Made by a program: the position numbers and the translations under genes
Assembly (NCBI RefSeq): GCF_008634025.1
Contig: NZ_PDCM01000001.1
Location: 1,163,501 to 1,227,500 of the forward strand
Length of the DNA stretch: 64,000 bases
Reading direction: 5' to 3'
Source: Streptomyces albofaciens JCM 4342
GTDB taxonomy: Bacteria > Actinomycetota > Actinomycetes > Streptomycetales > Streptomycetaceae
Part shown: positions 7,737 through 19,679 of the stretch, piece by piece
How positions within the stretch are numbered: the stretch's first letter is position 1
How the letters are laid out: every line of letters starts with the position of its first letter
Notes under the pieces: generated by a model
Databases searched by the model: none
Told to the model about the DNA's origin: nothing
The model's input: only the letters and a program-made list of their open reading frames with translations

Positions 7737-9077
7737 TCAGGCCTGCGGACGCCCCAGCGCCCGGTACGTCCAGCCCGCCTTGCGCCACAGCTCCGGGTCG
7801 AGCGCGTTGCGCCCGTCCAGGATGCGCGGCGTGGCGACCACCTCGGCCAGCGCGGCCGGGTCCAGCTCCCGGAACTCCCGCCACTCGGTCAGGTGCAGCA
7901 CCACATCGGCGCCGCGCACCGCCTCCAGCGCCGTGTCCGCGTACCCGAGCGTCGGGAACACGCGCGCGGCGTTCGCCATGCCCTTGGGGTCGTACACCGT
8001 CACCTGGGCGCCCTGGAGGTGGATCTGCCCGGCGACGTTGAGCGCGGGGGAGTCCCGTACGTCGTCCGAATCCGGCTTGAACGTGGCCCCGAGGACGGCG
8101 ACCCGGGTGCCGAGGAAGGAGCCGCCGACCGCCTCCCGGGTCAGCTCGACCATGTGGCCGCGGCGCCGCATGTTGATCGAGTCGACCTCGCGCAGGAACG
8201 TCAGCGCCTGGTCGGCGCCCAGCTCACCGGCGCGCGCCATGAACGCCCGGATGTCCTTGGGCAGGCAGCCGCCGCCGAAACCGATCCCGGCGCGCAGGAA
8301 CTTCTTGCCGATCCGCTCGTCGTGGCCGATCGCCTCCGCCAGCTTCACCACGTCACCGCCGGCCGCCTCGCACACCTCCGCCATCGCGTTGATGAAGGAG
8401 ATCTTGGTGGCCAGGAAGGAGTTGGCGGAGGTCTTGACCAGCTCCGCGGTGGGGAAGTCGGCCACGACGAACGGCGAGCCCTCGGCCACGGGCTTGGCGT
8501 ACACCTCCCGCAGCACCTCCTCGGCCCGGCCGCCGTCCACGCCGATCACGATCCGGTCCGGGTGCAGGGTGTCCTGCACGGCGAAGCCCTCGCGCAGGAA
8601 CTCCGGGTTCCAGGCCAGCTCCACGTCCTCACCGGCCGGCGCCAGCTCGGCGACCCGCTTGGCCAGCCGCGCCGCGCTGCCCACCGGGACCGTCGACTTG
8701 CCGACCACCAGCGCGGGGCGCCGCAGCAGCGGGGCCAGCGACTCGACGGCCGATTCCACGTACGACATGTCGCAGGCGTACTCGCCGTGCTTCTGCGGGG
8801 TGTTGACGCACAGGAAGTGCACGTCGCCGAAGTCCGCCAGCTCTTCCCAGGAAGTGGTGAAGCGCAGCCGGCCGCTGGCGCCCTCGATGCCCGCGACGTG
8901 CGCCCGCAGCAGCTCCTCCAGGCCCGGCTCGAACATCGGGGTCTCGCCCCGCTCCAGCATCTCGATCTTCGCCGGGTCGATGTCCAGGCCCATCACCTCG
9001 AAGCCGAGCTCCGCCATGGCCGCGGCATGCGTCGCGCCGAGGTAGCCGGTGCCGATCACGGTGATCTTCAGGGCCAT
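7737..9077 (-). CDS. UDP-glucose 6-dehydrogenase
   Basis: Oxidises UDP-glucose to UDP-glucuronate with two NAD+, feeding polysaccharide or wall glycan synthesis. The ATG at 9077 gives 446 residues beginning MALKITVIGTGYLGA, the GxGxxG NAD-binding turn. The central domain has the catalytic cysteine in GFGGGCLPKD, and the C-terminal nucleotide-sugar domain has ATFKPDSDDVRDSPA. The frame remains open upstream to 9191 but without homology. It is convergent to the dipeptidase and divergent from the acyl-CoA dehydrogenase. UDP-mannuronate- or UDP-HexNAc-type relatives are less likely given the start and the GGGCLPKD motif. Confidence 0.93.
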   Translation of the reverse strand: MALKITVIGTGYLGATHAAAMAELGFEVMGLDIDPAKIEMLERGETPMFEPGLEELLRAHVAGIEGASGRLRFTTSWEELADFGDVHFLCVNTPQKHGEYACDMSYVESAVESLAPLLRRPALVVGKSTVPVGSAARLAKRVAELAPAGEDVELAWNPEFLREGFAVQDTLHPDRIVIGVDGGRAEEVLREVYAKPVAEGSPFVVADFPTAELVKTSANSFLATKISFINAMAEVCEAAGGDVVKLAEAIGHDERIGKKFLRAGIGFGGGCLPKDIRAFMARAGELGADQALTFLREVDSINMRRRGHMVELTREAVGGSFLGTRVAVLGATFKPDSDDVRDSPALNVAGQIHLQGAQVTVYDPKGMANAARVFPTLGYADTALEAVRGADVVLHLTEWREFRELDPAALAEVVATPRILDGRNALDPELWRKAGWTYRALGRPQA

Positions 9078-9289
9078 GGGTGCTCCAGGTGCGTACGGGG
9101 AAGATCTGAGCAGCCCGAGCATAGTCCGGCCGGTCTCCGGGGCGACGGGCCCGGTGGCCGGGACCTTGCGGTGCGCTGTCGGCAAACTCACGTCTCCCGC
9201 GCCCCGTGCCGCCCCTAGAATTCGGGTGACACATCGAGTTACTTAACGGTAGTTAGCAAGCCAGTCAGCTCTCAGGGGAGTGAGAAACC

Positions 9290-10462
9290 TTGGCGGGAAC
9301 CGCTGATTTCGATCTGTACCGGACGTCCGAGGAGCACGACATGCTCCGCGAGTCGGTGCGCTCGCTCGCCGAGGCGAAGATCGCCCCGTTCGCCGCCGAG
9401 GTGGACGAGCAGGCCCGCTTCCCGCAGGAGGCCCGGGACGCGCTGACCCTCAACGACCTGCACGCCGTGCACGTCCCGGAGGCGTACGGCGGCGCCGGCG
9501 CGGACGCGCTGGCCACCGTCATCGTCATCGAGGAGGTCGCCCGGGTCTGCGCCTCCTCCTCGCTGATCCCGGCCGTCAACAAGCTCGGCTCCCTCCCGGT
9601 CATCCTCTCCGGCTCCGAGGAGCTGAAGAAGAAGTACCTGGGCCCGCTCGCCAAGGGCGACGCGATGTTCTCGTACTGCCTGAGCGAGCCGGACGCGGGC
9701 TCCGACGCCGCCGGCATGAAGACCAAGGCCGTACGCGACGGCGACCACTACGTCCTCAACGGCGTCAAGCGCTGGATCACCAACGCCGGCGTCAGCGAGT
9801 ACTACACGGTCATGGCCGTGACCGACCCCGAGAAGCGCTCCAAGGGCATCAGCGCCTTCGTCGTCGAGAAGGGCGACGAGGGCGTCTCCTTCGGCGCCCC
9901 GGAGAAGAAGCTCGGCATCAAGGGCTCCCCGACCCGCGAGGTCTACCTCGACAACGTCCGCATCCCCGCCGACCGCATGATCGGCGCGGAGGGCACCGGC
10001 TTCGCCACCGCCATGAAGACCCTGGACCACACCCGCATCACCATCGCGGCCCAGGCCCTCGGCATCGCCCAGGGCGCCCTCGACTACGCCAAGGGCTACG
10101 TCCAGGAGCGCAAGCAGTTCGGCAAGCCGATCGGCGACTTCCAGGGCGTGCAGTTCATGCTCGCCGACATGGCCATGAAGCTGGAGGCCGCCCGCCAGCT
10201 CACCTACGCCGCCGCCGCCCGCTCCGAGCGCATCTCCGCCGGCGGCAAGGACGAGGACCTCACCTTCTTCGGCGCCGCCGCCAAGTGCTACGCCTCCGAC
10301 GCCGCCATGGAAATCACCACCGACGCGGTCCAGCTCCTCGGCGGCTACGGCTACACCCGCGACTACCCGCTGGAGCGCATGATGCGCGACGCCAAGATCA
10401 CGCAGATCTACGAGGGGACGAATCAGGTGCAGCGGATCGTCATGGCGAGGAACCTGCCGTAA
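9290..10462 (+). CDS. Acyl-CoA dehydrogenase (FadE25-like), 3' end used as attachment site
   Basis: FAD flavoenzyme of 390 residues that introduces the alpha-beta double bond in acyl-CoA. Motifs: YCLSEPDAGSDA and WITNAG (flavin and substrate site), LGIKGSPTREV, RKQFGKPI, and C-terminal QLLGGYGYTRDYPLERMMRDAKI followed by IYEGTNQVQR, which carries the catalytic glutamate. A TTG start at 9290 is supported by AGGGGAG about ten bases upstream and matches the family N-terminus. Neighbourhood with purE/purK parallels mycobacterial fadE25. A mobile element is inserted at the 3' end, and the final codons here are probably element-derived but encode the same residues as the displaced copy at 15019-15082. 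Confidence 0.95.
   Translation: MAGTADFDLYRTSEEHDMLRESVRSLAEAKIAPFAAEVDEQARFPQEARDALTLNDLHAVHVPEAYGGAGADALATVIVIEEVARVCASSSLIPAVNKLGSLPVILSGSEELKKKYLGPLAKGDAMFSYCLSEPDAGSDAAGMKTKAVRDGDHYVLNGVKRWITNAGVSEYYTVMAVTDPEKRSKGISAFVVEKGDEGVSFGAPEKKLGIKGSPTREVYLDNVRIPADRMIGAEGTGFATAMKTLDHTRITIAAQALGIAQGALDYAKGYVQERKQFGKPIGDFQGVQFMLADMAMKLEAARQLTYAAAARSERISAGGKDEDLTFFGAAAKCYASDAAMEITTDAVQLLGGYGYTRDYPLERMMRDAKITQIYEGTNQVQRIVMARNLP
10399..10462 (+). repeat. attL: left copy of the 64-bp attachment repeat
   Basis: Pairs with 15019-15082: 59 of 64 bases identical, all five differences synonymous, with an uninterrupted identical core at 10424-10446 (23 bases). Strand exchange most simply occurred in that core. 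Bases to its right here would be from the element, and those to its left from the chromosome. Confidence 0.88.
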
Positions 10463-10662: not shown

Positions 10663-11630
10663 TCAGGCGACTTCGGCCTGTGCCTCTGTGGGGTCGTCCG
10701 CCCCGGGCGTCAGCATCGTGGCGATGGCCGCCAGCCCGCGCTGCTCGGCTCCCTCAAAGATGTAGTGGTAGTGCTCGCGCAACACATCCGTACTGCTGTG
10801 ACCTATCCAGTCGGCCACATCGTTCTCAGGGACGCCCGCGTACAGGAGCCGCGATCCGTAGTAGTGCCGCATGGAGTGTGGCTTGCAGTACGTCACCTCC
10901 CCCCTGGGACAGAGCCACCATCCAGATCTGCCGGTAGAAGTACGACGCGTACAGGTACCCGGTGCGCGACACGTTGGGGAACAACAGGTGCTCCGGCCCT
11001 CACACCGTGGTTCTTGATGTGTCGCCGAAGCTCGAAGGCAACGTTGGGCGGGAGTGGCACCACGCGGCCGGGCTCTTCCTCGTCGTGGGCCTTGATGTGC
11101 CGCCGCTGTAGCGCGCTGCTCTTGCCGGACTCCGTTTCGCCGTCCTCCGCGATCTGGAAGCCAACGCGCAGAACTTCGGCTTTGAAGTCGATCTGATCCC
11201 GAGAGACGGCCATGGCCTCACCGATACGGAGCCCGCAACCGGCCATCAGCCACAGCTTTGCGCGGTACCGGGGTGGGGCGCCGTCGAGCGCAGCCAGAAC
11301 TTCCCGCGTTGTGAGCCGTCGTGCCTTGCTCTTGTGCTCGCGGATCTCCTTGGCACGACTGCCCGCGTGCTTGATCTTCTTGCACGGGTTGCGGCCGATG
11401 ATCTCGTTGACAACGGCCCAGTCCATCATCCCGGAGAAGAACGAGAACCGCTGACGCCGCGTCCGTGCGGACAGCTTGCGGTCCGTCTCCATCCACAAGA
11501 GCCACTGCTCAATGTCCGCCACCTTCAGGGACACGATCGAGCGCGCCTTGAAGAACGGCTCAATGGTCGTGTTCAGGATCGAGCGGTACTGCTTCTTGGT
11601 GCTGTCTCCAGCTTCCTTTGATTGGTCCAC
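10663..11630 (-). pseudogene. Tyrosine-recombinase integrase, two frameshifts
   Basis: Site-specific integrase of the element. The upstream piece (11630 to about 11000) has the SAM-like core-binding region (STKKQYRSILNTTIEPFF) and the first catalytic arginine in AGCGLRIGEA. The terminal piece (10896-10663) has HSMRHYYGSRLL (His and Arg), GHSS, and the nucleophilic Tyr in REHYHYIF. A short stretch between them (LLFPNVSRTGYLYASYFY) lies in the third frame. Two +1 shifts, near 10993 in a GG and near 10912 in a run of six G, break the gene. Both could be base-calling errors in G-runs or true mutations. The GTG at 11630 follows an in-frame stop, so an N-terminal arm-binding domain is missing or lost. 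Confidence 0.85.
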
Positions 11631-13173: not shown

Positions 13174-14016
13174 CTATTTGCGTTGTCGGGTAAAGATCCC
13201 GGACCACTCGTTCAGGAGTTCTCGGCACTCGTCTCCGAACACTGCGTACGACTCGTACCTCTCGAATTCCTCGCGGTATGCGTTCACGTCACGATGGTCC
13301 CGCAGGACCAATGCGCCGGTGCCGGTTTCCACGGTGGCTAGTCGCCGGTCGTATACCGTGAAAGTATTCAGCGGCATCTCTGAAATGTGGCCTGCCAAGG
13401 GGATGACCCCAAGTCGAACACTAGGAATTCGAGATACCGAAGTCAGTCGGTCGAGCTGCATTGCCATGGCGAGAGGTGGCAGTAAGGGCCAGCGAACGGC
13501 CTGTTCCGTCAGCAGGAACGTAAACGACTTTGACGAGTCGTAGAGGACGCTCTGGCGTTCCAGTTTCTTCGCAATGGTCTTGGACTGGTCTCCGGGAGTG
13601 TCCGCGATGCTGGCACGCACGTACTCCGGCGTAGCAAGTAGCCCTGTGATCGCCGAGAGCAGGAAGAATCGGAACTCTGTTGTGACCGTTTCGATCCTGG
13701 CTAGCTCGTTCTGCTTCTTATCAAGACCCCGGCGCCGCGAAGACCAATGGTCCTGCCACTCGGTGTTCGCGGTGCGAACCAGTTCGAGGATCTGCGAGGC
13801 TGCCGGATCATCGGTCCCAAGCGCTTCAAGGATCAGCTCTACGTCGACAATGGCGGGACTCAGTTTCCCGCTCTCCATGTTGCTGACCTTGGTTTGTGAC
13901 ATGTTGCAGCGGCGAGCGAGCCAGGTCTGAGTCTTCCCGGCTCGCTTGCGCAGGCTTCGCAATGCTTCCGCTAGGTCCGACCTGGACTGACCTAGCCGTT
14001 CAGGCTCAAAACTCAA
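13174..14016 (-). CDS. XRE-family regulator with DUF5753 domain (WhiJ-like)
   Basis: Transcription factor of 280 residues. The N-terminal helix-turn-helix lies near residues 13-70 (SLRKRAGKTQTWLARRC, NMSQTKVSNMESGK). The C-terminal DUF5753 region from about 100 (VLYDSSKSFTFLLTEQAVRW, IPLAGH, NTFTVYDRRLATVETGTGALVLRD) is typical of the streptomycete WhiJ-like family. It overlaps the DUF6879 gene upstream by 11 bases, so it is translationally coupled. A 14-base sequence occurs both before this operon (14810-14823) and right at its stop codon (13175-13188), suggesting it regulates itself and the downstream genes. Confidence 0.88.
   Translation of the reverse strand: MSFEPERLGQSRSDLAEALRSLRKRAGKTQTWLARRCNMSQTKVSNMESGKLSPAIVDVELILEALGTDDPAASQILELVRTANTEWQDHWSSRRRGLDKKQNELARIETVTTEFRFFLLSAITGLLATPEYVRASIADTPGDQSKTIAKKLERQSVLYDSSKSFTFLLTEQAVRWPLLPPLAMAMQLDRLTSVSRIPSVRLGVIPLAGHISEMPLNTFTVYDRRLATVETGTGALVLRDHRDVNAYREEFERYESYAVFGDECRELLNEWSGIFTRQRK
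13175..13188 (-). promoter_or_regulatory. Operator-like 14-mer, copy B
   Basis: Minus strand reads CGACAACGCAAATA, identical to 14810-14823, with TTTA six bases upstream in both copies. It lies 40 bases ahead of the 104-residue gene. Probable binding site of the adjacent XRE protein. Confidence 0.55.
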
Positions 14017-14530
14017 GACCCTTCACGAACTCCTCGAAGGGCACGGACTCAGCTACCGCGATTCGCTGGTATTCGATGAACTGGGCCACGTCGCCCTCGA
14101 ATACCTCGCGGTTGATCTGCTTCCCGTCAGGCTCATAGTTCATGAGCACGACTTCCGACTGGTCGAACATCCAGAAGTCTTGAACCCCCTCAAGAGGGTT
14201 GGTTCTGTCGGTCACGTCAAGAATTCGGATCTGCTCCCCAGCCAAGAGGTGCGGCCGGTAGTACTGGGAGAACTCGAACCGCAGGTACTCAGACAGAGGC
14301 CGAGTGACGATGTGGACGCGTCCTTGAACGCGCCCCTCCGTGACCTGTCTGCGGAGCCGGTTTGTGTACTCGTTGTGGACCGTTGCCGGGTCGATACGCG
14401 CGCCGTCACGGAACGCCTGAAGCTCCTCGGCTTCCTGCGGCATGAGGTACTGCGGCAGGGTCTCAAGACGCCATGCTTCCCGCCGGAAGCCCTCGAAGCG
14501 TGCGGCCCACTCCTCACCAGCCAAGAGCAC
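14006..14530 (-). CDS. DUF6879-family protein
   Basis: A 174-residue protein of a family found almost always beside XRE/DUF5753 regulators in streptomycetes. Typical features: basic N-terminal third, RRQVTEGRVQGRVHIVTRPL, YLRFEFSQYYRPHLLAGEQIRIL and DFWMFDQSEVVLMNYEPDG. GTG start at 14530 overlaps the upstream 69-residue gene by 17 bases, and its 3' end overlaps the XRE gene. Role is unknown. It shares architecture with the second DUF6879 gene at 17375-17905 (RVVSEPVTDYIRYEHAGTPV, QVRWLPR, CWVFDGRAVLFNHF), so the two operons are paralogous. Confidence 0.8.
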   Translation of the reverse strand: MLLAGEEWAARFEGFRREAWRLETLPQYLMPQEAEELQAFRDGARIDPATVHNEYTNRLRRQVTEGRVQGRVHIVTRPLSEYLRFEFSQYYRPHLLAGEQIRILDVTDRTNPLEGVQDFWMFDQSEVVLMNYEPDGKQINREVFEGDVAQFIEYQRIAVAESVPFEEFVKGLEF

Positions 14531-15189: not shown

Positions 15190-16290
15190 CTACGGCCGGC
15201 TCACGACGTTTCGTGGGTCGTCGAGCCATATCCGCTGGCCGTCCCGGTCGGCCGACAAGCCGAACCGCGACCGTTCGGGCCGCCCCAGGCCGTGCCACCG
15301 GCGGAACGCCCCGCGCACCTCGTCCCACAGCGCCCGCGGCCCGTACTCCTCCACCTCGTACGTCGCCGCGTCAGGTGCGTACTCCACGGCCGCCCAGGAC
15401 GCTCCGTCGTCGGAGAAGAACCACAAGGTGGCTTCACCACAGTCGTCGGCGTGCCACCGGTACCACGCATCGGTGACGATCAGGCCGGTGAAGAACGCCG
15501 GTGCGTCCTGGATGACGTGCTGCGGTGGGATGTCCGTCGTACTGTGTTCGCCCTCCTCCCCGGCGTACAGGTCGGCGATGCGCCCGGTCCCGGCGCGTCG
15601 GGTGCGGTCCCACATGAAGGACGGATAGCCGGAGAACGCACCCTGGGCCACCCCGTTCCGTACCTCCAGCGCGACGAACGAGCCACTGAAGAAGCTGCTG
15701 CCCCACGGGGTGACGATCCGTCCGTCCGGGCATTGCTCCAGCCACGCCGACGGGATGTCCCGCATGGTGCAGGTGCAGATGACGCGGTCGTACGGAGCGC
15801 CCTGCCGGTAGCCGTGGCGTCCGTCACCGGCAACGGCTGTCAGCCGGAACCCCGCACGCCTGAGGTTGCCCAGGGCCATGATCAGCACCGCCGGGTCGAA
15901 CTCGACACTCGTCACCCAGCTGTCGCCCAGCCGGTGGCACAGCCAGGCGGCGTGGTATCCGGTGCCGGTGCCGATCTCCAGCACCCGGTGTTCGTCCCGC
16001 ACATCGAGCAGGGCCAGCATGTCGAGCATGACCGACGGCATGGAGGAGGACGATGTGGCGAGCCGGAACCCGCCGTCCGGAGTGTCCTCGCCGTCGTTGA
16101 CCTGGGTCACGACAGGGGCGTCCGTGTAGACGGCCGCCAACCAGCTTTCAGGGTCGGCGGTGAAGTCGTGTCCCTCGAACACCCTGGGGATGAACAGTGC
16201 CCGGTCCACGGCGGCCACGGCGTCGCGCCACTCCGCGGGCAGCGGCCCCCTGCTCGCCAGCGCCGCCAACAGCTGCCGCTGTGTCGTCAT
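15190..16290 (-). CDS. PIMT-like SAM-dependent methyltransferase coupled to a small peptide gene
   Basis: A 366-residue protein. Residues ~1-200 are a protein-L-isoaspartate O-methyltransferase-type domain: N-terminal helical region with RALFIP, the SSSSMPSVMLDML segment in place of the usual active-site loop, and SAM motif I VLEIGTGTGYHAAWL (103-117). The C-terminal ~165 residues match no enzyme domain I can name and resemble the extensions of RiPP-associated PIMT homologues. ATG at 16290 lies only 6 bases after the stop of a 36-codon gene, so the two are coupled. Known relatives methylate Asp in modified peptides to form aspartimide (lanthipeptide and graspetide pathways), but no LanB, LanM or ATP-grasp enzyme is here. 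Housekeeping protein repair is the alternative; the extension and context argue against it. Confidence 0.85.
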   Translation of the reverse strand: MTTQRQLLAALASRGPLPAEWRDAVAAVDRALFIPRVFEGHDFTADPESWLAAVYTDAPVVTQVNDGEDTPDGGFRLATSSSSMPSVMLDMLALLDVRDEHRVLEIGTGTGYHAAWLCHRLGDSWVTSVEFDPAVLIMALGNLRRAGFRLTAVAGDGRHGYRQGAPYDRVICTCTMRDIPSAWLEQCPDGRIVTPWGSSFFSGSFVALEVRNGVAQGAFSGYPSFMWDRTRRAGTGRIADLYAGEEGEHSTTDIPPQHVIQDAPAFFTGLIVTDAWYRWHADDCGEATLWFFSDDGASWAAVEYAPDAATYEVEEYGPRALWDEVRGAFRRWHGLGRPERSRFGLSADRDGQRIWLDDPRNVVSRP

Positions 16291-16296
16291 CCGGTG

Positions 16297-16407
16297 TCAG
16301 CCCTTCGGCGGCTCGTACGGCTTGGTCGGCCCCGGCGGCCGGTCGCGGTGGCCGTCGCTGTCGGAGGTGTCCGGCCTTCCGGAGTCGTCTCCGCCCTTCT
16401 TGGCCAT
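16297..16407 (-). CDS. 36-residue Asp-rich peptide, candidate methyltransferase substrate
   Basis: Short gene with ATG at 16407 behind AGGAAGCGAGG and a stop 6 bases before the methyltransferase ATG. It reads MAKKGGDDSGRPDTSDSDG in the N-terminal half and ends GPTKPYEPPKG: basic start, Asp/Ser/Gly-rich middle with an Asp-Gly pair (residues 18-19), Pro-rich tail. No membrane segment and no Cys. Good ribosome site, fixed spacing and a regulated-looking promoter region upstream (16481-16500) support it as a real gene. I infer a RiPP-like precursor or small regulator modified by the neighbouring enzyme. I do not recognise the family. Confidence 0.65.
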   Translation of the reverse strand: MAKKGGDDSGRPDTSDSDGHRDRPPGPTKPYEPPKG

Positions 16408-16480
16408 GTGTGCCTCGCTTCCTGGGCGTCATCGTGTGTCATCGCGACGCTACGGAGAGGCATGGGCTGTCGACCACGTT

Positions 16481-16500
16481 GTTGCACGGGCTTGCACGTG
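16481..16500 (-). promoter_or_regulatory. Operator-like direct repeat upstream of the peptide gene
   Basis: Minus strand CACGTGCAAGCCCGTGCAAC: two CGTGCAA half-sites ten bases apart, one helical turn. It matches 18159-18178 at 16 of 20 positions and sits between the XRE stop and the peptide gene. Confidence 0.6.
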
Positions 16501-16502
16501 AA

Positions 16503-17351
16503 TCACCTAAGTGTGTCGATCGCTTCGGTGATGAGGGTCCGTGCCGCAGCGCCGTACACGGCGATCCGGGAGAGCCCGGCGAAGGCCTTCGCGTAGACGG
16601 CGATCTCACTGGGAGCCGAGATGTTCACCGCGGCCGTGAGCAATTCGACGCTCACCCGGCAGTCGTCGAAGAGATAGAACGCCTCCAGCGGCCACACCCG
16701 CCGCTCGGCGGTGAACGGGATGACGCCGAAGCCGACATTCGGCAGGGCCATCACCGCCAGCAGGTATCCGAGCTGCCCGGCCATGGTGCCGGCGTCACCG
16801 GTGCGGTGGCGCAGCACGCCTTCCTCCACCAGCAGAGCGAAACGATGGCCGCCCCGGAAAACCACCCGTGAGCGCTCGACACGCGAGGCCGCGGCGGAAA
16901 CCGAGTCGTCCGGGGTGCCTTGGAATGCGGCGATGGTGGAGAGCAGGGCTGTCGCGTACGCCTCCGTCTGGAGCATTCCCGGTACCACGTTCGAGCAGTA
17001 CACCCGGAAATTCCGGGTGTTCTCGTACAGGGGAACCACTTCCTCCTGTGCCCGGCGCATCCCGTGCCGGTGCAGTTTTTTCCAGTGCACGTACATCTGC
17101 TCTGCATGACGGTTCGCCGCGACCAGATCGGGCACCTGCTCCTCGGCCCCGCACGCCGTGCACCACGCACGGATGTCGGCATCGGAGGCGGGAGTTCTGG
17201 CCCGCTCGATCCTGGACGTCTTCGCAGGGCTCCAGCCGCACCGCACCGCCAGCTCATGACCGCTCAGCTCCGCTTCCCTGCGCAGTTCACCGAGGCGCGC
17301 GGCGAGCGCCTCTCTGGCGGCCTGGGTGCTGGACGAGGGGGAAACGGACAT
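16503..17351 (-). CDS. XRE-family regulator with DUF5753 domain (second locus)
   Basis: A 282-residue regulator: helix-turn-helix near 16-70 (LGELRREAELSGHELAVRCGWS then KTSRIERART, quoted in parts), DUF5753 region from ~95 (VVPGMLQTEAYATALL, FVGLLVEEGVL-like RFALLVEEGVLRHRTG, FGVIPF, WPLEAFYLFDDCRVSVELL). It shares the WhiJ-like organisation with the element's XRE protein but is clearly divergent in sequence. It is the third gene after the upstream operator-like site, and a matching site follows its stop codon ahead of the peptide-methyltransferase pair. This predicts that it controls both transcription units. Confidence 0.88.
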   Translation of the reverse strand: MSVSPSSSTQAAREALAARLGELRREAELSGHELAVRCGWSPAKTSRIERARTPASDADIRAWCTACGAEEQVPDLVAANRHAEQMYVHWKKLHRHGMRRAQEEVVPLYENTRNFRVYCSNVVPGMLQTEAYATALLSTIAAFQGTPDDSVSAAASRVERSRVVFRGGHRFALLVEEGVLRHRTGDAGTMAGQLGYLLAVMALPNVGFGVIPFTAERRVWPLEAFYLFDDCRVSVELLTAAVNISAPSEIAVYAKAFAGLSRIAVYGAAARTLITEAIDTLR

Positions 17352-17374: not shown

Positions 17375-17905
17375 TCAGACCGTGTACTTCTCATGGGGAG
17401 TGGCGCGCTCCCACACGGACTCGAACGCTGCCGACGCCAGCCGGGACACGGCGGATTCCGTACGTATTTCCCAGCCGGGCGCGGACCAATCTCCGTCACC
17501 CGAGAAATGGTTGAAGAGCACGGCCCTGCCGTCGAACACCCAGCAGTCGTTCCCCGGCAGGGCGATGTCCGACGCCAGACGGCGGGGCAACCAACGGACC
17601 TGCTCCCCGGCGTGGATGTTCACCGGGGTGCCGGCGTGCTCGTACCGGATGTAATCGGTGACCGGTTCGGAGACGACGCGGGCGCGGCGTACGACGACTC
17701 CGCGTGCCACGGTCTCCCGGATCAGCTTCACCCAAGGCGCCCAATACCGGGACGTGGGGTCCGTGTCACGCTCTCCCGTACGTTTCCAGTGCTCGAAATC
17801 GTCGATCTCGTCGTCCACGCCGTACACGTCGCGCATCTCCAGATGTACGGCGGAGTGCCGGGCCCCGGCCAGCAGCGTGTCGAAATCCCATTCGCTCTGC
17901 GGCAT
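17375..17905 (-). CDS. DUF6879-family protein (second locus)
   Basis: A 176-residue homologue of the element-borne DUF6879 protein; ATG at 17905. Features: acidic N-terminus (MPQSEWDFDTLLAGARH), RGVVVRRARVVSEPVTDYI, TPVNIHAGEQVRWLPRR and CWVFDGRAVLFNHFSGDG. It ends 23 bases before the XRE start. Function unknown; constant association with XRE/DUF5753 suggests a partner or modulator of the regulator. The upstream small gene overlaps its 5' end. Confidence 0.8.
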   Translation of the reverse strand: MPQSEWDFDTLLAGARHSAVHLEMRDVYGVDDEIDDFEHWKRTGERDTDPTSRYWAPWVKLIRETVARGVVVRRARVVSEPVTDYIRYEHAGTPVNIHAGEQVRWLPRRLASDIALPGNDCWVFDGRAVLFNHFSGDGDWSAPGWEIRTESAVSRLASAAFESVWERATPHEKYTV

Positions 17906-18326: not shown

Positions 18327-19679
18327 CTACTCGTTCCCGCTCACCGTAACCGGCTCATCGTTCTTCAGTTGTTCGACGAGCTTGGAGACCTTGGCCTTGT
18401 CCCAGCGGAGGTTGCCGCCGACGGTGCCGGCGATGGGCATGTTCATGGACTTGCCGTCGCCGCCGGTGACGCCCTTCATCGCGAAGAACATCGAGCCGAG
18501 GTCGAACAGGCCCATGTCCTTGTCGACGACCAGGGTGTCCAGGCCCGCGCCCAGGGTCGGGTAGAGCTTGAAGGGGTTCATGATCGTGCCGGGGGTGGCC
18601 GTCTGGTTGGCGAGGGCGGCGAGGAACTTCTGCTGGTTCTTCGTGCGGTCCAGGTCGCTGCCCGCGAAGGCGTAGCGGGTGCGGACGAAGGCCAGGGCCT
18701 GCTCGCCGTTGAGGGTCTGCTTGCCGGCCTGGAAGTCGGCGCCGGACTTCTTGTCCTTGAACGCCTTGGGGATGTCCATCTCGACGCCGCCGATCGCGTC
18801 CACGATGTTGGCGAAGCCGGCGAAGCCGATCTCGACATAGTGGTCGATGTGCAGGCCGGTGTTGTGCTCGACGGTGCGCACCAGCAGCTCGGGGCCGTCC
18901 TCGGCGTACGCCGCGTTGAGCTTGGTGTGCCGGCCGCGGCCCGGGTACTTCTTGCCGGTCTTGGAGCCGACGAACGAGGGGATCTCCACGTCCGAGTCGC
19001 GCGGCAGCGAGATCAGCGTCGGGCCGTTGCTGCCGTCGTGCAGGATCATCATCGAGTCGGTGCGCTTGCCCTCGGCGGAGCCGGTGTGCAGCTTCTTCTT
19101 GTCCTCGTCGGACATGCCCTCGCGGCTGTCCGAGCCGACGATCAGGTAGTTCGTGCCGTCGCCCGCCTCCGGCCGGTCGATGACCTTGCTCAGGTCCACC
19201 TCGCGGCGCAGCTTGCCGTCGGCCCAGAAGTAGGTGGCGACGGAGGTGACGAGGAGTACGGCGACGAGTGTCAGGACGGTCCACTTGATGCGGCGGCCCC
19301 AGTTGGGGGCGGGGCGCTGACCGCGGTCGCCGCCGCGCCCACCGCGCCCGCCGCGGCCTCCGCCTCCGCCGTAGACCTGGCCGGTGTTGTAGCCGTCGTC
19401 GTGGCCGGGGCCCTGGCCGGGGCCGTTGCCGTACGGGTCGTAGCCCTGGTTCTGGTGGGGTACGGCGGGGCCGCGGCGCGGTGACAGGTGCGGCGGCAGC
19501 GGCGGCTCGGGCGGCTGCTGCCCCGGCCCGGGACCGCCGGGGACGCCGGGGCCACCGGGCCCACCGGAGCCGTACGGACCGCCACGGCGTACGTGCGGCA
19601 TGGCGCGCGCGCCCTCCGGTTCGGCGCCGCTGCCACGTCCGTACCGGTCTCTGTTGTCGGACCCAGGCCACTCGTTCAT
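18327..19679 (-). CDS. LCP-family cell-wall polymer ligase (LCP 1)
   Basis: LytR-CpsA-Psr protein of 450 residues. These membrane-anchored enzymes move a glycopolymer from undecaprenyl phosphate to peptidoglycan. Order: disordered Gly/Pro-rich cytoplasmic tail (1-135), one membrane segment near 140-160, LCP domain with IVGSDSR, ISLPRDSDV, KLNAAYAEDGPELLVRTVE, HIDHYVEIGF, DAIGGVEMDI and RTRYAFAGSDLDRTKNQQ (conserved Asp/Arg pairs of the pyrophosphate site). It ends just after the domain, with no LytR_C tail. ATG at 19679. One of five LCP genes in this window. Confidence 0.93.
   Translation of the reverse strand: MNEWPGSDNRDRYGRGSGAEPEGARAMPHVRRGGPYGSGGPGGPGVPGGPGPGQQPPEPPLPPHLSPRRGPAVPHQNQGYDPYGNGPGQGPGHDDGYNTGQVYGGGGGRGGRGGRGGDRGQRPAPNWGRRIKWTVLTLVAVLLVTSVATYFWADGKLRREVDLSKVIDRPEAGDGTNYLIVGSDSREGMSDEDKKKLHTGSAEGKRTDSMMILHDGSNGPTLISLPRDSDVEIPSFVGSKTGKKYPGRGRHTKLNAAYAEDGPELLVRTVEHNTGLHIDHYVEIGFAGFANIVDAIGGVEMDIPKAFKDKKSGADFQAGKQTLNGEQALAFVRTRYAFAGSDLDRTKNQQKFLAALANQTATPGTIMNPFKLYPTLGAGLDTLVVDKDMGLFDLGSMFFAMKGVTGGDGKSMNMPIAGTVGGNLRWDKAKVSKLVEQLKNDEPVTVSGNE

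Follow-up and report, generated by a model that had tools for sequence, protein, structure and literature searches.

The 64,000-nucleotide stretch of the Streptomyces albofaciens JCM 4342 genome analyzed here (contig NZ_PDCM01000001.1, positions 1,163,501 to 1,227,500; hereafter the window, whose own numbering is used throughout) contains two adjacent reverse-strand genes, one for a 36-residue peptide and one for a homologue of protein isoaspartate methyltransferase (PIMT), with XRE/DUF5753 and DUF6879 regulator genes on their upstream side (Table 1). In line with the initial annotation, made from the sequence alone, the peptide open reading frame (ORF) ends six bases (CACCGG) before that of the methyltransferase, and the peptide has a Pro-rich tail and a single Asp-Gly pair (D18-G19). 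It consists of 19.4% Pro, 16.7% Gly and 16.7% Asp, its net charge (K/R minus D/E) is zero, and it has no cysteine. A GAAGG motif within the last peptide codons, noted by eye, is a possible ribosome-binding site for the enzyme gene and suggests that translation of the two is coupled.

Table 1. Annotated and predicted features of the peptide-methyltransferase locus (window coordinates).
Feature	Position	Strand	Basis
Precursor peptide, 36 aa, type I pamtide/imiditide-like	16297..16407	-	Translation; conserved in 8/8 close orthologues
Asp18 codon (Asp-Gly), predicted methylation/aspartimide site	16354..16356	-	Inference: D18 invariant; Asp-Gly in 99/121
PIMT-homologous peptide Asp O-methyltransferase (PAMT), 366 aa	15190..16290	-	PCMT, TIGR04188, AlphaFold2 (AF2) model, 1dl5
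WXXXGXP motif of RiPP-associated PIMTs (WHGLGRP, W332-P338)	15277..15297	-	Sequence
-10-like element TAGCGT, 21 bp after GTGG	16447..16452	-	TANNNT spacing in 49/52 contexts
Putative operator TGCAA-N5-TGCAA-N4-GTGG	16474..16496	-	Only genome match at <=1 mismatch
XRE regulator, HTH_31 + DUF5753, WhiJ-like, presumed activator	16503..17351	-	Pfam
DUF6879 partner, 176 aa from ATG at 17905 (proposed start); open frame to 18175	17375..17905	-	Pfam, E 5e-52
Second XRE/DUF5753 (13174-14016) + DUF6879 (14006-14530) pair	13174..14530	-	Pfam

The peptide gene is conserved together with the enzyme. An in-frame peptide precedes the methyltransferase in all eight close orthologous loci, whose enzymes are 65-100% identical, with the consensus PDTSxSDGHRDKPPGPTKPYEPP; the two genes are six bases apart in six of them and 14 bases apart in L016, and they overlap by 4 bases in L014. 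The peptide genes are under purifying selection: dN/dS, the ratio of nonsynonymous to synonymous change, is below 1 in 28 of 28 pairwise comparisons, and differences at the three codon positions number 134/132/275. We extended the comparison to 121 distinct related methyltransferases (tblastn E <= 1e-20 among the matches listed, own-genome PCMT matches and three extra loci, with near-identical sequences merged). The initial annotation had named homologous enzymes lacking a conserved upstream peptide as the outcome that would speak against the pairing, and the search did not bear this out, since 107 of the 121 are preceded by a Gly/Pro/Asp-rich peptide as judged by a composition score that includes start and ribosome-site terms and whose threshold was chosen after the list was inspected. 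Asp-Gly is present in 99 of the 121 upstream candidates. Only 2 of 582 control ORF starts from the same loci passed this score, neither with Asp-Gly; these controls were ORFs of >= 200 aa, some of which are not genes. The upstream peptides split into several visibly distinct subfamilies. Conservation in all eight close orthologues and recurrence before most relatives indicate that the peptide ORF is not there merely by chance.

The Pfam PCMT domain covers residues 19-197 of the enzyme (E 6e-26) and leaves about 169 residues, in agreement with the C-terminal extension of about 165 residues proposed earlier. In the AF2 model the whole chain is predicted with a mean pLDDT of 94.4, and the best match in the PDB is 1dl5, the Thermotoga maritima PIMT, which has the same two-domain fold but carries only WXXXG rather than the full WXXXGXP motif (PMC13001092). 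The C-terminal domain of more than 100 residues with the order β-α-β-β-β-β-α that marks type I enzymes was found at residues 248-334, with a broken helix at 256-271 followed by two further strands, and also in the match to 1dl5. W332 and P338 of the motif are invariant across 43 aligned sequences. Among curated models, the enzyme scores 302.5 bits against TIGR04188 and 81.7 bits against the repair-PIMT model TIGR00080, which points to a place in the published clade of PAMTs. Membership of the FxLD lanthipeptides was ruled out by the TIGR04364 score (97 bits; cut-off 320). Streptomyces is the source of the enzyme's nearest named relatives. A role in anti-phage defence was considered as well, but the enzyme's sole PADLOC match is a partial one, to mad2 (residues 91-187).

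Two-gene clusters of a precursor and a PAMT were described in 2023 as pamtides, a family with 1539 PAMTs; in that report, type I precursors are about 45 aa long with 17.3% Gly, 16.8% Pro, 10.2% Asp and one conserved Asp, and linear SpaA is a substrate of SpaM (PMC10787088). A review treats type I pamtides and imiditides as one and the same class and describes NmaA/NmaM (PMC13001092). The locus shares with SpaA-SpaM and NmaA-NmaM the precursor-PAMT pair, a Cys-free, Gly/Pro/Asp-rich linear precursor with a conserved Asp near Gly/Pro, and the WXXXGXP domain close to the C-terminus of the enzyme, and differs from them in its shorter, net neutral peptide and in the presence of the XRE/DUF6879 pair with a conserved putative operator. 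The tetracysteine zinc motif of type II pamtide/cysimiditide precursors is absent from the peptide. The locus forms a two-gene cluster with no primary enzyme for a ribosomally synthesized and post-translationally modified peptide (RiPP), and neither another RiPP enzyme nor an ATP-grasp ligase was found by Pfam among 27 selected ORFs between 6.4 and 24.4 kb, a set that includes the peptide, represents part of the ORFs in that interval and contains several that are possibly not genes; the earlier claim that no other modification enzyme is present thus holds for this set. By its anatomy we assign the locus to the type I pamtides/imiditides with high confidence. A new RiPP class was considered and rejected, as the same two-gene class had been published in 2023 (PMC10787088; PMC13001092); the locus is therefore an added member and not a new system, and of the initial proposal of a minimal, possibly undescribed system the minimal peptide/PIMT-homologue pair stands while its novelty does not. 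TIGR04188, the nearest NCBIfam model of the enzyme, describes the methyltransferase of group 13 graspetides (graspimiditides), but the lack of an ATP-grasp ligase in the scanned ORFs and a score below the curated cut-off of 380 bits rule this group out.

Similar gene arrangements were seen elsewhere. Two further likely pamtide loci in the same genome (L003, G000:C1:2237747-2238871; L004, G000:C2:2478370-2479428) have PAMT-like genes with pamtide-like peptides upstream. L052:5811-8050 carries two opposed methyltransferase genes whose downstream ends meet, each with its own distinct upstream peptide, and at L046:5103-6092 a second, more distant methyltransferase follows the XRE gene, with no upstream peptide passing the score.

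The adjacent enzyme very probably modifies the peptide at one aspartate, judging from the sequence comparisons. The 36-residue peptide would be the linear substrate of the PAMT, whose PCMT domain would bind S-adenosylmethionine and methylate one Asp side chain, most likely that of Asp18, while the C-terminal domain with its WXXXGXP motif would help to choose the peptide; the methyl ester would then collapse to an aspartimide (-18 Da), to be hydrolyzed to isoaspartate (isoAsp). The proposed search for conserved aspartates among the upstream peptides yielded D13 and D18, the only two that are invariant in the eight close orthologues, together with an invariant D18-G19 pair; D7, D8 and D16 are variable, and Glu takes the place of D22 in one case. 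D18 is favoured because Asp-Gly is common to most of the upstream candidates, and we consider it the likely site. The alternative is that the peptide is indeed the target but that the methyl ester is the stable product, or that an aspartate other than D18, such as D13, is modified. Both the invariance of D13 and one subfamily with SSDTAKP-type cores, in which Thr or Ser follows the core Asp and no Asp-Gly is present, fit this alternative, yet the prevalence of Asp-Gly among the candidates and the progression of published PAMTs to aspartimide and isoAsp (PMC10787088) make it improbable; it departs from the main reading at a single step.

The regulatory genes are associated with the close loci irrespective of their arrangement. 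XRE/DUF5753 and DUF6879 genes lie beside all eight close orthologues in three gene orders: in six loci the pair lies upstream and points the same way, in L044 it is upstream but divergent, and in L046 it is downstream, so that its content is kept while gene order changes. The comparison also took in a wider, non-random set of 41 loci, drawn mostly from the top of the match list and leaving out L011, which duplicates L045. In 20 of them the methyltransferase has an XRE/DUF5753 gene no more than 3.5 kb away, and in 16 it has both regulators within that distance. The 9.25-Mb genome (two contigs) has 5 DUF6879 and 30 DUF5753 matches, and DUF6879 matches number 0-8 in ten of eleven other genomes and 10 in one; at such low densities, the link between pamtides and the pair is far above expectation. 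The XRE/DUF6879 neighbours named in the initial annotation were borne out by Pfam, and their control of the peptide is probable.

A putative operator followed by a -10-like element precedes the peptide gene. The operator pattern is exact in seven of the eight close loci, with a TGTAA variant seen by eye in L014. At <=1 mismatch it has one match in the genome, as does a reversed control pattern; across 295 genomes of the genus, 50 exact sites were found in 44, as against one for the reversed control. We analyzed 52 site contexts (the 50 exact sites plus L009 and L010); they stem from related genomes and cannot be treated as independent. In 49 of them a TANNNT element begins precisely 21 bp downstream of GTGG, and in none does one begin at spacings of 15-20 or 22-27; within 2.5 kb there are both regulator genes in 46, DUF6879 only in 1, XRE only in 2 and neither in 3. 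Among the wide pamtide loci, 10 of the 16 that carry the pair have the site at <=1 mismatch, as against 0 of the 25 that lack it (Fisher p 7e-6, not corrected for relatedness). These distributions tie the site to the regulator pair. A methyltransferase gene lies within 2.5 kb in 11 of the 52 contexts, and 35 of the 46 pair-bearing contexts have none; by the sequence evidence the pamtide is one of several cargoes behind the site. The other cargoes include many small ORFs, as called by a rough GC-based gene caller and clustered by BLAST. Contexts L212-L251, with the pair and no methyltransferase within 2.5 kb, show recurrent ORF families (c0, c1, c3, c4, c7 and c8) as well as dehydrogenase families (c2 and c6) like those flanking the locus in the window.

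By the usual numbering from the -10 element the repeats span roughly -56 to -34, and the conserved GTGG, at the -35 position, could belong to the operator, act as a -35 element or do both. We propose that one promoter drives both peptide and enzyme, and that the adjacent XRE/DUF5753 protein binds the direct repeats, which recur with a period of 10 bp immediately before the -10 element. Direct control of the peptide promoter by this protein is quite likely in our judgement; since the repeats occupy the usual place of an activator, activation is somewhat favoured over repression. The DUF6879 protein could restrain it, much as BldB/DUF397 does for WhiJ9, although by analogy this is an even call. 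WhiJ proteins carry DUF5753. In S. venezuelae, the XRE protein WhiJ9, whose gene adjoins that of a BldB-type DUF397 partner, recognizes three direct repeats; activation of the small gene iosA next to it is mediated by WhiJ9, and iosA expression rises on loss of BldB (PMC10294661). The locus resembles this system, as far as sequence can tell, in having an XRE protein with a small partner and direct repeats at the promoter of a neighbouring small gene; it differs in its partner, which is DUF6879 rather than DUF397, and in its repeats, which are TGCAA and adjoin the -10 element, whereas those of WhiJ9 are CGXXCTCAAC and lie 113 bp upstream of the start. DUF397-DUF5753 pairs have been noted beside graspetides with PIMT and may also co-occur with group 13 (PMC13097080), and DUF5753 regulators beside ATP-grasp loci (PMC8939145).

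It is also conceivable that the repeat site belongs to another regulator and that the XRE/DUF6879 neighbours are passengers, an alternative that bears on the control of the operon alone. The genome has five DUF6879 genes and only one site at <=1 mismatch, leaving four pairs without a site of their own, and six of the 16 wide loci with the pair have none. However, the presence of both regulator genes in 46 of the 52 contexts, set against 30 DUF5753 and 5 DUF6879 matches in 9.25 Mb, and the confinement of the site to pair-bearing wide loci make passengers clearly unlikely. The second XRE/DUF6879 pair of the window, downstream of the methyltransferase, is probably a separate cassette; the other seven close orthologues have only one DUF6879 gene each in the stretches examined. 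As the single genomic site at <=1 mismatch lies before the peptide, this second pair would be expected to act through a different operator or through that same one.

The locus lies between genes for an acyl-CoA dehydrogenase (9290-10462) and a LytR-CpsA-Psr protein (18327-19679), and the distance between these two is 7.9 kb here and ranges from about 77 bp to 9.7 kb in the 25 same-genus genomes among 41 searched; distances were taken between match ends and are approximate, and in G004 and G015, with two dehydrogenase matches each, the nearer one was used. The relative orientation of the two genes also varies, and together these variations indicate that the cassette occupies a variable chromosomal spot. 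A UDP-glucose dehydrogenase gene lies at 7737-9191. An integrase-like ORF at 10893-11630, borderline in Pfam (best score 27.4; cut-off 27), is perhaps a remnant, and no tRNA that could serve as an integration site was found within 5000-26000.

Taken together, a type I pamtide operon in a Streptomyces accessory locus, with an XRE-driven promoter, is the best overall explanation and in our view a highly likely one, given the sequence comparisons. Several observations weigh against it. The enzyme falls short of the TIGR04188 cut-off; 14 of the 121 related methyltransferases have no good upstream peptide by the composition score; a positive charge is emphasized for the class in the review (PMC13001092), but the peptide has no net charge; the close set conserves D13 as strictly as D18; and in a fused peptide-enzyme model the peptide has a pLDDT of 25-39, which gives no support for docking. 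For the regulatory part, the site is missing from the six pair-bearing loci mentioned above, and 25 of the 41 wide loci have no regulator pair within 3.5 kb, so that such control would be a feature of some pamtides and not of the whole class.

The peptide might instead be no substrate at all and serve the methyltransferase or the XRE protein as a cofactor or regulator. The tight linkage of the peptide and enzyme genes would fit such a role, as would the regulator pair adjoining all eight close loci and the lack of an exporter or protease in the neighbouring ORFs that the Pfam scan covered (6.4-24.4 kb), but the homologous SpaA/SpaM and NmaA/NmaM pairs have been shown to be substrate and enzyme (PMC13001092; PMC10787088), and we regard this alternative as very unlikely. 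That the enzyme is a housekeeping-type repair PIMT (pcm), with the small ORF a leader or a chance ORF, is less likely still: its fold and sequence do match those of repair PIMTs through the PCMT domain, but its TIGR00080 score lies far under the cut-off of 159.05 bits and rules out this assignment, the same genome has a better PCMT match elsewhere (157.5 bits versus 90.6 bits), and the peptide is conserved as a protein and recurs before most related enzymes.

For the pamtide operon, the lack of an exporter or protease in the scanned ORFs favours a peptide that most likely acts intracellularly or locally. The shared DNA switch and regulator pair at a pamtide operon look like a new addition: DUF6879 found no mention in the literature searched by words, and a word search of the main texts of two pamtide papers found no mention of regulator, XRE or transcription. 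A combined word search brought up only the graspetide paper, and the repeat site likewise had no published source in the literature searched by words. A speculative and rather doubtful extension is that the XRE-DUF6879 pair forms a mobile, self-addressed switch that carries its own operator-promoter and drives a small cargo, with the modified pamtide peptide as the signal read by the pair. If true, an aspartimide/isoAsp peptide would be an intracellular or local messenger, the first function for the class; a 2026 review regards connecting aspartimidylated RiPPs with their biological roles as the larger challenge still ahead (PMC13001092). A promoter code and regulator pair tied to some pamtides would give a direct handle on peptide function, and the same site would predict targets for a set of XRE-DUF6879 pairs.
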